Positions 25,693 to 37,831 of a stretch of 37,831 bases of DNA are shown here, one piece after another (the stretch's first letter is position 1; each line of letters opens with the position of its first letter). The notes beneath the pieces are model-generated. The model worked only from the letters and a program-made list of their open reading frames with translations. It was not told where the DNA came from and made no database searches. Both the position numbers and the translations under genes were made by a program. This DNA comes from a virus. The stretch lies in the IMG/VR virus record IMGVR_UViG_3300046171_000019, positions 1-37,831 of that record. One strand, given 5' to 3'.

Positions 25693-26564
25693 ATCTGTGT
25701 AACCTCTATAACATTAGGTGGTTTAGGTACTTGAGTTAAGTATCTATAACCTGTTGAATATTTAAACACCCTTAAACCTTTACCATCGTTAGCATCTTTA
25801 TGACATTCAAACTTATGTCTACAGTATACACAACCTCTAGCAAGTTTCATGTTACCAGACTTACCATCTGGTTCGTCATCATAACATTTATCAGGAGGAG
25901 TAGATAACTTAACAGCTTTTTTAATATCAGTTATTTTCTTTTTGATATTAGGCTTATCAAAGTTATCAGGTTTAAACATAGCTAACTCCCCAGACTCTTT
26001 GTTGAGAGCAAGGAAGCCACCGTTCTTAGTTCCTTCTGCTTGTTCGTATCCTGCAAGTTGAGCCATGTAACCAAAAGCATCATCCTCTGCTAGTGTTCCG
26101 TCTCTAAACTTTTTAAATGCAAAACCAGAAGCAGTCTTTACATCTACAACTTCTCCATCAATAACACAGTCCATGTGTCCTTTGATTCCGGATACAGTTA
26201 TTTCTTTTTGTTCATTAGTAACTTCATGTCCAGATAACTTAACAAGAAATAAAACTATCTCTTCAAGTAAGTGTCCGTATAAGAACTTAATAAAAGTAGG
26301 AGGAGATATAACCTCTGTTGAATCAGATTCAGAGTTCATCTCATACCATAACTGTCTAGGCTGTTTGCCTATGTTAGACATACGTAAAGAAGGTTTACCT
26401 CTAGGAGAAGGGTGAGACCAAGCGTAGAGAATCTCTTTCATGGACTCTCCAAACTGCTCAATAGTATCCTCATCTATGTCAAGATGTTCTCCTTTTCCTA
26501 GAGCCGACAATTTATTATATATATCTTCTACTAATGTGTCAAGTGTTTTTGATTTCTTTTTCAT
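25689..26564 (-). CDS. Cas4/RecB-like PD-(D/E)XK exonuclease with Fe-S-type cysteines
   Basis: The product has 291 residues. Nuclease core: H98/E101 region (YGHLLEE), D132 (KGHMDCV), D141 and K143 (VVDVKTA), and the QxxxY motif Q169-Y173 (QLAGY). Four cysteines, C227, C245, C248 and C254 (GCVYCRHKFEC), fit the 4Fe-4S cluster of Cas4/AddB-type exonucleases, although all four lie C-terminal to the core here. In T7-like marine phages this enzyme stands where T7 has its gp6 exonuclease, so it probably removes primers, degrades host DNA and aids recombination. Its stop overlaps the next gene (ATGA). Confidence 0.85.
   Translation of the reverse strand: MKKKSKTLDTLVEDIYNKLSALGKGEHLDIDEDTIEQFGESMKEILYAWSHPSPRGKPSLRMSNIGKQPRQLWYEMNSESDSTEVISPPTFIKFLYGHLLEEIVLFLVKLSGHEVTNEQKEITVSGIKGHMDCVIDGEVVDVKTASGFAFKKFRDGTLAEDDAFGYMAQLAGYEQAEGTKNGGFLALNKESGELAMFKPDNFDKPNIKKKITDIKKAVKLSTPPDKCYDDEPDGKSGNMKLARGCVYCRHKFECHKDANDGKGLRVFKYSTGYRYLTQVPKPPNVIEVTQI
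26514..26542 (-). promoter_or_regulatory. Perfect-consensus sigma70-like site inside the exonuclease gene
   Basis: On the minus strand TTGACA (26542-26537), 17 bases and TATAAT (26519-26514). It lies about 20-50 bases inside the exonuclease coding sequence, so it could drive the nuclease/RNR genes downstream, but the coding constraint means the match may be partly accidental. Confidence 0.35.
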
Positions 26565-26565
26565 A

Positions 26566-26883
26566 TTATTTTCTATGTTTTACAAATTTAAGTTTACGAG
26601 TCTGTGAATTAAACATTAACAACTGTACTCCTGCTTCAACTTGTTCACGAGTTCTACCTGTACACTTAGTTAAATTATTACCTGTATCTTTATGTAATTG
26701 AGGCTGTGCTGTTTTAACATCTATTAAAATTATATCTCCTTTAGAATCTCTTGCTACTAAATCAGCAAGACCTGTACATCCACAATTTTTAAATACTTCA
26801 TAACCGTTGTCCCATAACCAAGTTACTGCATAGAACTCAGCCATGTCTCCTTTTCTACTATCGCAATGCTTAGTGGGTTTCAC
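26566..26883 (-). CDS. PD-(D/E)XK endonuclease-like protein (105 aa)
   Basis: The short protein shows a Holliday-junction-resolvase-like nuclease core: RKGDMAEFYAVTWLWDNGYEV (E16 in a helix after KGD), GLADLVARD (D41) and ILIDVKTAQ (D55, K57). The rest is helical with a basic C-terminus. Its start lies inside the 3' end of the polymerase gene (14-base overlap), which places it in the replication operon. It may act on branched or damaged DNA alongside endonuclease I; the substrate is unknown. The nuclease fold call is good, the subfamily is not determined. Confidence 0.75.
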   Translation of the reverse strand: MKPTKHCDSRKGDMAEFYAVTWLWDNGYEVFKNCGCTGLADLVARDSKGDIILIDVKTAQPQLHKDTGNNLTKCTGRTREQVEAGVQLLMFNSQTRKLKFVKHRK

Positions 26884-28601
26884 TCCAGTTACCTCCTATT
26901 TTATATTCACCATCAAGAGGACATCTAAGATTAAAATGTTCTCCTGCTTTTATAATACTATCAACAGCAAACTCACCAATAAAATCTGCTTGTTCTTTAG
27001 GAACTTCTATCTGCCATTCATCGTGGATGTTAGCAACAAACTTATAAGGTACTGCATTTAATTTTAATACATCATCAAGTATTGATAATGCTTTCTTCAT
27101 AACGATAGCACCTGCTCCTTGAAGCAAAGTGTTCAATGCAGAATGAGCATTACGTATGTAAAGCTTTCTACCATCTATACCTTTGAGATATTTCTTTGAA
27201 GCTGCTCTCTGTACTCTATCTCTAAGAGATTTAAATGCAGGGTTATTATCGAAGAAATGTTCTCTAGCTCGTTTACCATCTGCTGTATTTCCTTCAACCA
27301 CTTTTCCAAGCTTCTCATCTCCTGCTCCGTACATGAGTGCATAGATGAATGTCTTCGCCTGATTTCTTGATTTAAGTTTTGCAGCTCTTTGATTAGCTGT
27401 GTGTATGTCTCCATCTAAAATCTCCTTGATATAAGTTTCATCATTCATATAGTGTGCTAACATTCTTAGCTCTAAACCACTAGCATCAACTCCGAGTAAT
27501 ACATTACCCTCATCAACAATCCAACATGCTCTACATTCTGAACCATAAGGACTGTGAACTGAAGGTACTTGTGCCATGTTAGGACTTCTGTGTGTCATTC
27601 TACCGGTGATAGCACCGTTAGGTATAACAAAACCATGCACACGTCCATCCTCTTGCACCGCTTCAACCCAAGAATCAACTTGAGCTATACGTTTTTGTAT
27701 TAATAAAAAGTCTGCTATAAGTTTAGCTTCACGGATATGAGTAACTTCTGATAGAGTTTTCTCATCTACAATAGGCTGACCTGTAGGAGTAAACCTCTCA
27801 GGTTTCCAACCAAAGTCAACAAGATATTCACCAATCTGTTTACGACTACCAAGATTAAACTCTTGTAAAGTCTGTCTCATAAAAGGCTCAAAGTTATTAG
27901 TATCTATACATCTTTGATACTCATCATCAGTAAGTCCACGTTTAGATAAGTCACCATCTTTTTTAATGTAAGGTGTAACTAATTTATCATCTACCCATTT
28001 AGGTTTGAAAGTACTTGTGAACTTCATCTTCAATCTGTTGAGACTTTTCTCTAAGTTCTGCAAGTAATACTAGTGCAGATTCCATGTCAAACATGAAACC
28101 GTTTTCTTCTTGTTGTTTAATTATTCTTGCAACGTCTTGTTCAAGTTCAATAGATTGTTTACTAAAACCTTTTGACTCATTACGAAGTGAGTTATAGACA
28201 AGAGTATTTAACTGAACATCACGAACACAATAGTCTAACATCTGTGTAGAATAATTCTGATAGTCTTCAAAGTCTATCTTAGAAAGACCAAGCTTATATC
28301 CCCACTTCTCTAAACTATGACCACCCTCTCTTGTAGGGTTAAACAATCTAGAAAGAACAAGTGTATCAATAAGTTCTTTGTCTCTAAGTTTTATACCTGC
28401 AAACTTTTCTACCATAGGAATATCAAATCCTATAATGTTATGACCTATCAGCCTATCTGCTTTAGATAAAAGCTCGTAGCCTTCTTGCAAGTTGCTTGGA
28501 GGAAACTTAAATATCTCTCCAGAGTTTGCATCTTGAGCTACAAGACAATGTATCTTAGTGGCTTTAAGGTCATCAGTTTCTATGTCAAATACTAAATCCA
28601 T
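26870..28601 (-). CDS. DNA polymerase, family A (T7-like), with 3'-5' exonuclease domain; one inserted base
   Basis: It replicates the phage genome. Exonuclease motifs: D6-E8 (FDIET), D60 (HNIIGFD), Y124-D128 (YCVRD). Polymerase motif A VDASGLELR, motif B RNQAKTFIYALMYGAG, motif C NIHDEWQ. Uncorrected, the frame breaks where an N-terminal part (ending VHKYFQT) meets a C-terminal part. Removing one T from the TTT at 28004-28006 (plus strand) restores YFQPKWVDDKLVTPY and one protein of 576 residues. It is shorter than T7 polymerase (704) and lacks an obvious extended thioredoxin-binding insert, as in several marine podoviruses. It starts 3 bases after the helicase stop. Confidence 0.95.
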
Positions 28602-31254: not shown

Positions 31255-31562
31255 ATAACCCTCCAGTTAAAAGGGTGGCTAGTCACGTGGTGGTTTAGTA
31301 CTCATTCGTGTTTTATCCTTAACTTCTTCAAGGCGACCTAATCGTTCCAGAAAAGCTTTTACAAAGGCTCACTCCTAGCCACGAGTTTTGTTGTTTAAAG
31401 TCTGTACAAACTATCTCGCATCGAGAAAAAAATCAGACTGTTTTTGGTGTTAATATTTTAAGTCGTACACCCGAGCCACTCGCCCAACCACCGACTTAAA
31501 CAGTATGCCTTCAGGTTCAGGAAGGTTAGTTGAGGGCTACACCCTACAGCATACTAGAATAA
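31255..31562 (-). ncRNA. Candidate structured leader RNA / non-coding RNA (about 300 nt)
   Basis: Between a perfect promoter and the 84-aa gene lies a gene-free stretch that folds by eye into four successive domains (minus-strand sense). (A) AGTATGC 31555-31549 with GCATACT 31508-31502, enclosing hairpins AGGG/CCCT and CCTTC/GAAGG, a three-way junction. (B) TTTAAGTCG 31500-31492 with CGACTTAAA 31465-31457, enclosing CGAG/CTCG. (C) AGTCTG 31439-31434 with CAGACT 31404-31399, enclosing TCTCG/CGAGA. (D) GTGGCTAG 31382-31375 with CTAGCCAC 31282-31275. The motif GGGTGTA occurs in A and B. It could be a riboswitch, a protein-binding leader or an independent small RNA; it matches no RNA family I can name. 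It is not a tRNA. Confidence 0.55.
31279..31305 (-). CDS. Possible 8-residue leader peptide
   Basis: ATG 31305 encodes MSTKPPRD and stops at TAG 31281-31279, preceded by AAGGA (31320-31316) at a 10-base distance. The stop codon lies in the 3' arm of leader stem D, so a translating ribosome would open that stem and could affect the ribosome-binding site 15 bases further on. This is a small target and may be chance. Confidence 0.25.
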   Translation of the reverse strand: MSTKPPRD

Positions 31563-36933: not shown

Positions 36934-37011
36934 AGTATGTTAAATAAAACTTTAACTATCATAAACAGATTTAAAAGTCAATAGAAAATATTAATTATTT
37001 TAACTAAATTA

Positions 37012-37054
37012 CTGTATAAATATACAGCGTTTAAAATGCCTTGTATTGCATTTT
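37012..37054. other. Two adjacent inverted repeats in a gene-free patch
   Basis: CTGTATA-AA-TATACAG (37012-37027) has 7-bp arms and AAAATGC...GCATTTT (37033-37054) has 7-bp arms with an 8-nt loop; GTTAG...CTAAC follows at 37072-37087. No gene covers the area except a doubtful 18-codon plus-strand frame at 37094-37150. It could be protein-binding sites or RNA hairpins. Confidence 0.4.
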
Positions 37055-37178
37055 CTAAGGGTGGTTAAAGTGTTAGCATCAACTAACCAATCAATGGCTA
37101 GAAAAGGCTTAGAATTGATGTTTATAAATGAAAGTTATAATAGATTATAAATTAAGGATAGTCTAAAAAAGACTAAGC

Positions 37179-37202
37179 AAAAAAAACCCCCAATTAAGGG
37201 GG
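37179..37202 (-). terminator. Intrinsic terminator of the rightmost gene
   Basis: In minus-strand sense GGGGG... reads as CCCCC-TTAATT-GGGGG (37202-37187) followed by eight T. A 5-bp pure G-C stem and a long T-run make a strong terminator 20 bases after the gene ending at 37223. It isolates that gene from the next early promoter. Confidence 0.8.
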
Positions 37203-37453: not shown

Positions 37454-37494
37454 AATAATCCCTCGCCTTTCGGCTAAATGTTTAATATGTTCTC

Positions 37495-37523
37495 ACCATA
37501 GCATAAATTTAAAATAATGTAAA
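37495..37523 (-). promoter_or_regulatory. Candidate promoter of the rightmost gene
   Basis: TTTACA (37523-37518), 17 bases and TATGGT (37500-37495) on the minus strand. Predicted start near 37488, about 35 bases before the ATG, leaving room for the GAAA-tetraloop hairpin. The -35 box is part of one of the AAGCTTTACA repeats. Confidence 0.55.
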
Positions 37524-37736
37524 GCTTATCAAGATTAAAAAGTTTACAAAGTGTAGATATATTATAAATTTATAACACTTTATAAACTTTTCAAGGCTCA
37601 TAAACTAGATTGTGAAACTTTGCAAAGCTTGACAAGTTTAAAAAGTGGCGAAAAAAAAATTAAAAAAAACTTTACAAAGCTTGTAAAATGTGCTATAGAA
37701 AAAAGTTTTAAAAAAAGCTTTACAAACTTTGTAAAG
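37517..37736. repeat. Cluster of CTTTACAAAG-like palindromic repeats (iteron-like)
   Basis: Related copies: TGTAAAGCTTATCAAG (37518-37533), GTTTACAAAG (37542-37551), ACTTTATAAACTTTTCAAG (37578-37596), ACTTTGCAAAGCTTGACAAG (37617-37636), CTTTACAAAGCTTGTAAA (37670-37687) and GCTTTACAAACTTTGTAAAG (37717-37736). The last is a near-perfect 20-bp inverted repeat. Apart from the promoter at its left edge I see no gene in 37454-37831. Such a set near a podovirus end could be terminal-repeat/packaging signals, an origin, or operator sites. Confidence 0.6.
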
Positions 37737-37812
37737 TATGATAAGCGTGGGACATTCATGGCTTTTATAAAGTTTTATAAGTTCTAGTGATGGGGCAGGT
37801 AGGAGGCACATA

Positions 37813-37824
37813 GGGGGTACCCCC
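37813..37824. other. 12-bp GC palindrome GGGGGTACCCCC at the right edge
   Basis: A perfect palindrome in an otherwise AT-rich region, seven bases from the window end and next to a purine-rich GGGGCAGGTAGGAGG patch (37793-37806). It may belong to the terminal repeat or cleavage region; this cannot be decided from one end only. Confidence 0.4.
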
Positions 37825-37831
37825 ATACATA

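Follow-up and report, generated by a model that had tools for sequence, protein, structure and literature searches.

Comparison with related genomes shows that the stretch at 31255-31562 of the window (the whole 37.8-kb record of a marine phage analysed here) is an array of non-coding RNA cassettes on the minus strand, each predicted to fold independently, behind a conserved consensus promoter. The same comparison, made at the level of sequence, shows that the cassettes are exchanged between related phages and that one of them, cassette E, has been passed on whole between distantly related phages. Such exchange is visible only when related genomes are set side by side. A sequence-only reading had taken the stretch for a single RNA of four domains; it is instead a row of cassettes, each of which is seen elsewhere beside other neighbours. 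As to function, the reading that we favour, with a probability of about 0.4, is that the cassettes are trans-acting RNAs that bind host factors as decoys or antitoxin mimics and are exchanged in an arms race.

The array and its surroundings

The plus strand of the window holds the structural genes and the minus strand the replication genes, namely a primase/helicase, a DNA polymerase, a Cas4-like exonuclease and a ribonucleotide reductase. The polymerase is present as two overlapping ORFs (26870-28601, minus strand) that match consecutive parts of one PHROG profile. Upstream of the array lies a sigma-70 promoter with an extended -10 (TTGACA-17-TATAAT, TG; 31597-31569, minus strand), whose 12/12 match bears out the perfect promoter noted by the sequence-only reading and whose transcription start is expected near 31562. 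It is equally perfect in 43 of the 57 distinct related leaders and matches at 11/12 in the remaining 14. The roughly 300 nt behind it had been described as free of genes, and no ORF of at least 50 aa was found within 31255-31562 on either strand.

Directly behind the array, at 31254-31000 on the minus strand, is a gene for an 84-aa protein with a basic C-terminal helix. The protein has no Pfam, PHROG or PADLOC match, and its AlphaFold2 model (pLDDT 82.6) has no PDB fold match at E <= 0.001. A second sigma-70 promoter (31022-30994, minus strand, 12/12), also found at 12/12 and at the expected place in 22 of the 57 relatives, lies 3' of the array and the 84-aa gene and 5' of the replication genes, so that the array and the 84-aa gene appear to make up a short separate unit. 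The stretch had earlier been placed between a consensus promoter and the first gene of the replication operon. It does stand behind such a promoter, but it leads into the 84-aa gene, while the replication genes proper have a 12/12 promoter of their own. A third 12/12 sigma-70 promoter (26514-26542, minus strand) overlaps the region in which the gene for the Cas4-like exonuclease begins. No terminator was found between the array and the 84-aa gene, and from the array as far as 21553 the minus strand has no strong intrinsic terminator.

The window carries the arrangement A2-B2-D-E, where A2 is its form of cassette A, and the same arrangement recurs in several other contigs; the boundaries of the smaller cassettes were set by recurrence and by eye. 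All four long stems reported earlier are present, one in each cassette. Cassette A (31555-31502, minus strand), which comes first in every full array, is enclosed by AGTATGC:GCATACT (7 pairs), a closing stem that differs among relatives, and holds an AGGG:CCCT hairpin with the first GGGTGTA as well as a CCTTC:GAAGG hairpin. Cassette B2 (31500-31441, minus strand), whose position is taken in relatives by cassette B or C, has the stem TTTAAGTCG:CGACTTAAA (9 pairs, 31500-31492 with 31465-31457) and an inner GCGAG..CTCG hairpin. A pseudoknot between GGTGT (31471-31467, within the second GGGTGTA) and ACACC (31450-31446) is proposed for B2 on the basis of complementarity and a few relatives, one of which has lost an end pair. 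GGGTGTA does occur in the first two domains, as had been pointed out, but its pairing in A differs from that in B2, and it does not seem to be a motif common to the two. Cassette D (31439-31383, minus strand) combines the stem AGTCTG:CAGACT (6 pairs) with an inner CTCG-ATG-CGAG hairpin and a proposed pseudoknot of AGTTTG with CAAAACT behind an A-rich linker; it recurs in other arrays with altered inner hairpin and pseudoknot partners.

Cassette E (31382-31275, minus strand) is the largest, with four helices drawn from a covariance model and covariation. P1 is GTGGCTAG:CTAGCCAC (8 pairs, 31382-31375 with 31282-31275), P2 is CCTT:AAGG (31367-31364 with 31320-31317), P3, which has an exchangeable tip, lies at about 31355-31323, and P4 is CACG:CGTG (31310-31307 with 31287-31284), all on the minus strand. 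The minus-strand linker that follows (31274-31255), delimited by sequence and relatives, includes the Shine-Dalgarno GGAGGG (31264-31259), and the arrays share the constant 3' end TTTTAAC(TG/AC)(G)GAGGG, then ATG.

Two further features of the window lie outside the array. A second conserved non-coding stretch on the plus strand (36995-37190) has the hairpins CTGTATAAATATACAG and AAAATGC..GCATTTT, then AAGGGTGGTTAAAG..TCAACTAACC; it resembles cassette A and has a homologue in two contigs (L050/L051), and an Rfam search of it returned no match. The A/T-rich end of the record (37480-37831) contains the repeated palindrome-like words CTTTACAAA..TTTGTAAAG, possibly iterons or binding sites.

Comparative evidence for structure

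Fold energy by itself gives no support for a structured RNA: the predicted fold of the minus strand has -83 kcal/mol (z = -1.41), a value that 13 of 100 shuffles also reach. On the energy test named by the sequence-only reading itself, the proposal of a structured RNA would thus fail. Comparative evidence does give such support. RNAfold cannot represent pseudoknots, and since several of the elements are predicted to be pseudoknots, comparison with relatives is needed. Compensatory changes in homologues, which the sequence-only reading would lead one to look for, are seen as covariation in cassettes E, R and B. The suggestion that the promoter drives a structured RNA of no known family is likewise upheld by this covariation and by Rfam, where covariance models of 4227 families at the gathering threshold gave 0 hits in the window or nine related loci; permissive thresholds gave chance hits only. 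A tRNA/tmRNA search found none.

Cassette E was aligned alone and with attention to register over 27 distinct sequences, the variable P3 tip being excluded. Its four helices are paired in 96.6% of cells, and 15 of the 20 pairs change on both sides. The covariation score is 0.468, compared with 0.193 for shuffled alignments (0/500 reach it) and <=0.094 for slid versions, the latter being the only phylogeny control for the covariation counts. G-U pairs occur on the minus strand (pair 52-74 in 14 of the 27 sequences, pair 10-79 in 7), as expected for RNA made from this strand. The unpaired core of GAGTGAG, TGTAAAA and AATGAGNACTAAACC is nearly invariant. The E covariance model matches the window at 31384-31273 (87.2 bits, E 1.5e-19), with no other confident match there. 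Built from E only, the model recovers two sister types as well, F with E values of about 1e-7 to 1e-5 and G weakly, at 0.006-0.06. Judged from these alignments, E/F/G is a new RNA class with a conserved core. RNAalifold run on mixed E/F/G sequences returned P2 only, because the closing stem was misaligned.

The P3 tip is swapped too, with several unrelated tips found on the same core, so that even sub-parts of a cassette appear to be exchanged. One tip, GTCTGA-stem-GTGACGA, found in cassettes E and G of four contigs (L060, L111, L121, L192), has a covarying stem and by eye resembles a box C/D k-turn.

Several other cassettes have the shape of small H-type pseudoknots. For instance, cassette R (ACTCAC..CCCTA..GTGAGT-ATAAA..-TAGGG) is present in 50 contigs and its crossing stems covary (0.226 vs 0.076 shuffled, 0/500), with only three pairs varying on both sides. 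Cassette B covaries in both stems as well (0.253 vs 0.086 shuffled, 0/500, from six distinct sequences), and for R and B alike neither the score nor the percentage paired was reached by any of 500 shuffles. Cassettes C and S share the H-type shape and show pair changes in one or both stems. A strict descriptor of small H-type pseudoknots with an A-rich third loop matches 38 times in 50 arrays, compared with 1.5 +/- 1.2 times when the dinucleotides are shuffled; the arrays are related, hence the 38 are not independent events.

Exchange and movement of cassettes

Known phages gave no DNA match to the window, and by primase protein the nearest of them are Pelagibacter phages at 47% identity. Relatives were represented by the best 80 of hundreds of IMG/VR matches by primase, all of them metagenome contigs, which yielded 61 array loci, some of them duplicates of one contig. 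In about 60 related contigs the promoter and the first cassette stay the same, while the variable part is drawn from about 15 swapped cassette types, giving 28 arrangements in the 61 loci. Each array begins with A, followed by B, B2 or C and then by up to several more units, one arrangement consisting of A-B only. No type is repeated within any of the 28 arrangements; an apparent G-O-G is a single G with O inserted in its tip. Turnover is fast even among close relatives. At a primase identity of >=98%, the mean Jaccard index of variable cassettes is 0.52 and 29% of pairs share none; at 90-95% the mean falls to 0.17 and 53% of pairs lack a common variable cassette. Since every relative comes from a metagenome assembly, individual arrangements may in some cases be chimeric, but those that are common turn up in several independent metagenomes. 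Arrays of other phages (L141, L138, L157, L168, L234) contain types absent from the window (for example TTGTCCGAG..GGACAA; GATCCTGAATGGCGGATC), and the cassette pool thus exceeds the roughly 15 named types.

Movement over longer distances is seen with E. The copy in one distant contig (L093) is 98.3% identical to that of the window over 116 nt, whereas the alignable genes of the two agree at 56-71% as protein, which argues for a recent transfer of E as a unit. Further contigs were pulled with the E core pattern, with some chance matches lacking the closing stem mixed in. In these phages, E precedes many kinds of gene, including distinct primases and various small unknown early genes, and the replication genes of its carriers include a T7-like primase/polymerase, Erf/exonuclease, a methyltransferase and other helicases. 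It occurs at several places per phage type, many of them intercistronic. Among the contexts scored, 76 of E lead into a gene start and 1 into a terminator, and the corresponding numbers for R are 30 and 2. The E exception (L192) is flanked by two intrinsic terminators that enclose no credible gene; a -10 box stands just 5' of E, its -35 is weak, and the promoter scan passed none. In two contigs (L210 and L226; L221 likewise by eye), R sits in a 3' UTR, after a stop codon and just before a terminator. These contexts suggest that the cassettes can do without a downstream gene, although in most cases one is present.

Outside this set of phages, neither 50,697 phage records nor 72,556 plasmids contained a cassette match, and a search of 84,980 prokaryote species with the exact E core pattern, able to detect exact-core copies only, gave no credible copy. 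Four prokaryote matches to the core had flanks without the closing stem and read as coding sequence, and they were set aside as chance. A search of the open-access literature, which leaves subscription papers and preprints uncovered, found no description of the cassettes.

Possible functions and known RNA systems

If the cassettes do act in trans on the host, the array would be transcribed early in infection by the host RNA polymerase; that its RNA is made at all, we infer from the conservation of the promoter. Each cassette would fold as a pseudoknot or a four-helix RNA and bind one specific target in the host, which would most likely be a protein (a defence ribonuclease, a toxin or an RNA-processing enzyme, for example) and would be blocked by decoy or antitoxin mimicry. 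The cassettes needed would differ from host to host or strain to strain; this would account for the fast turnover and for the lack of any repeated type per array, and the place before a gene would mainly ensure early and strong transcription. This reading is favoured because the turnover resembles that of anti-defence genes, the unpaired cores are conserved, the arrays are non-redundant and some cassettes occur without a gene. It takes in two of the roles put forward by the sequence-only reading, a leader that binds a protein or host factor and a separate small RNA. Phage anti-defence islands are known as protein genes. More tentatively, the cassette arrays, including the four-helix class E/F/G, may be an RNA counterpart of such islands, in which each cassette would neutralise a different host RNA-handling defence and the set would be reassorted by recombination. 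A possible precedent for action in trans is phage PhiTE, which escapes the ToxIN suicide system via pseudoknot antitoxin mimics, its pseudo-ToxI RNA blocking ToxN (PMC3475682).

The main alternative, to which we give a lower probability, is that the cassettes act in cis on how stable the mRNA is or how well it is translated. Here the cassettes would shield the early mRNA from host ribonucleases, as a folded 5' end or as blocks to 5'-3' decay, or keep the ribosome site free; any compact fold would suffice, hence their interchangeability. The positional bias favours such a leader, given that a gene start follows 106 of the 109 E and R places that were scored and that the last cassette usually ends 20-30 nt 5' of the start codon; many of the pseudoknots are also compact. 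That nearly all places are 5' UTR or intercistronic is what a cis element would show, and to that extent it counts against trans-acting RNAs, although compact phage genomes would yield much the same bias anyway. A plain barrier, in turn, would not need the long conserved unpaired cores of E, the L192 and L210/L226 cassettes have no gene directly behind them, and it makes no difference to the same gene which cassette comes last. Should the cassettes act in cis alone, their exchange would still be a new kind of leader evolution. If host binding is correct, phages would have, in a swapped row of different structured RNAs, a new means of storing functions for interaction with the host and of exchanging them. 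The arrays yield at least one new predicted RNA class (E/F/G) and several pseudoknot classes.

The remaining explanations are all improbable. An element working at the DNA level as folded single-stranded DNA, be it a replication origin, a recombination site or a packaging signal, would suit an array that adjoins replication genes and recombines often, but the G-U pairs on this strand are A-C mismatches on the opposite one, each phage type has E at several places, L192 has it in a stand-alone unit, and the consensus promoter is conserved. About as improbable is processive antitermination, in which the 5' cassettes would modify the host RNA polymerase like HK022 put RNA for reading the early operon. 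The constant cassettes A-B directly behind the promoter and the terminator soon after E in L192 would fit it, but put-like elements would not need such variety and many places are intercistronic. With no strong intrinsic terminator before 21553 and an array-free second promoter serving the replication genes, antitermination is unlikely for this operon. Similarly low is the probability that E is a new self-cleaving or catalytic RNA trimming phage mRNAs just before ribosome sites: like small ribozymes, E has a closing stem that varies and an enclosed unpaired core that is strongly conserved, and its places between genes would agree with this, but no known ribozyme family in Rfam matched. Least probable is a small-molecule riboswitch, one of the roles suggested by the sequence-only reading, since for all its leader position, conserved core and preQ1-I-like pseudoknot shape there is no Rfam match, freely swapped and unrelated cassettes precede the same gene in close relatives, E precedes many unrelated genes, and no single aptamer class was found that goes with related genes and an expression platform.

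Structured RNAs at transcript starts are well known, as in HK022 put RNA, the T4 gene 32 leader pseudoknot and the preQ1-I riboswitch, the latter two being small pseudoknots. Each of these is a single fixed cis element without cassette exchange, and none is matched here in Rfam. Among phage and prophage RNAs, GOLLD and ROOL are ornate, large and of unknown function (PMC12286853); they span several hundred nucleotides in one particle-forming fold, in contrast to the small shuffled cassettes described here, which have no Rfam match. RNA anti-CRISPRs (Racrs) are small non-coding RNAs with which phages disable the immunity of the host through mimicry (PMC10651486). They mimic CRISPR repeats; the cassettes differ from them in their predicted pseudoknot or four-helix folds.

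A close likeness is to the RNAs of type III toxin-antitoxin systems (ToxI, TenpI, CptI) and to the pseudo-ToxI of PhiTE, the phage example in which a suicide ribonuclease is blocked; there too, non-coding RNA is made up of small H-type pseudoknots that have A-rich loops and stand in a row (PMC5086642, PMC3475682). Cassettes B and R, with their covarying crossing stems, have the H-type unit of these systems, while E differs in shape. In type III systems, tandem copies of one unit are followed by a terminator and a toxin gene, whereas here the units all differ: tandem near-identical repeats occur in none of the 28 arrangements, and no terminator with a ToxN/TenpN/CptN-like toxin was recognised downstream, where the window has its 84-aa protein without matches. 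With no tandem identical repeats, no toxin gene and no Rfam match, the cassettes are not type III antitoxins by membership, and their non-redundancy and fixed order, unlike those of type III antitoxin arrays, count against trans-acting host-binding RNAs. A further difference from type III systems is that the arrays also carry the four-helix class E/F/G.
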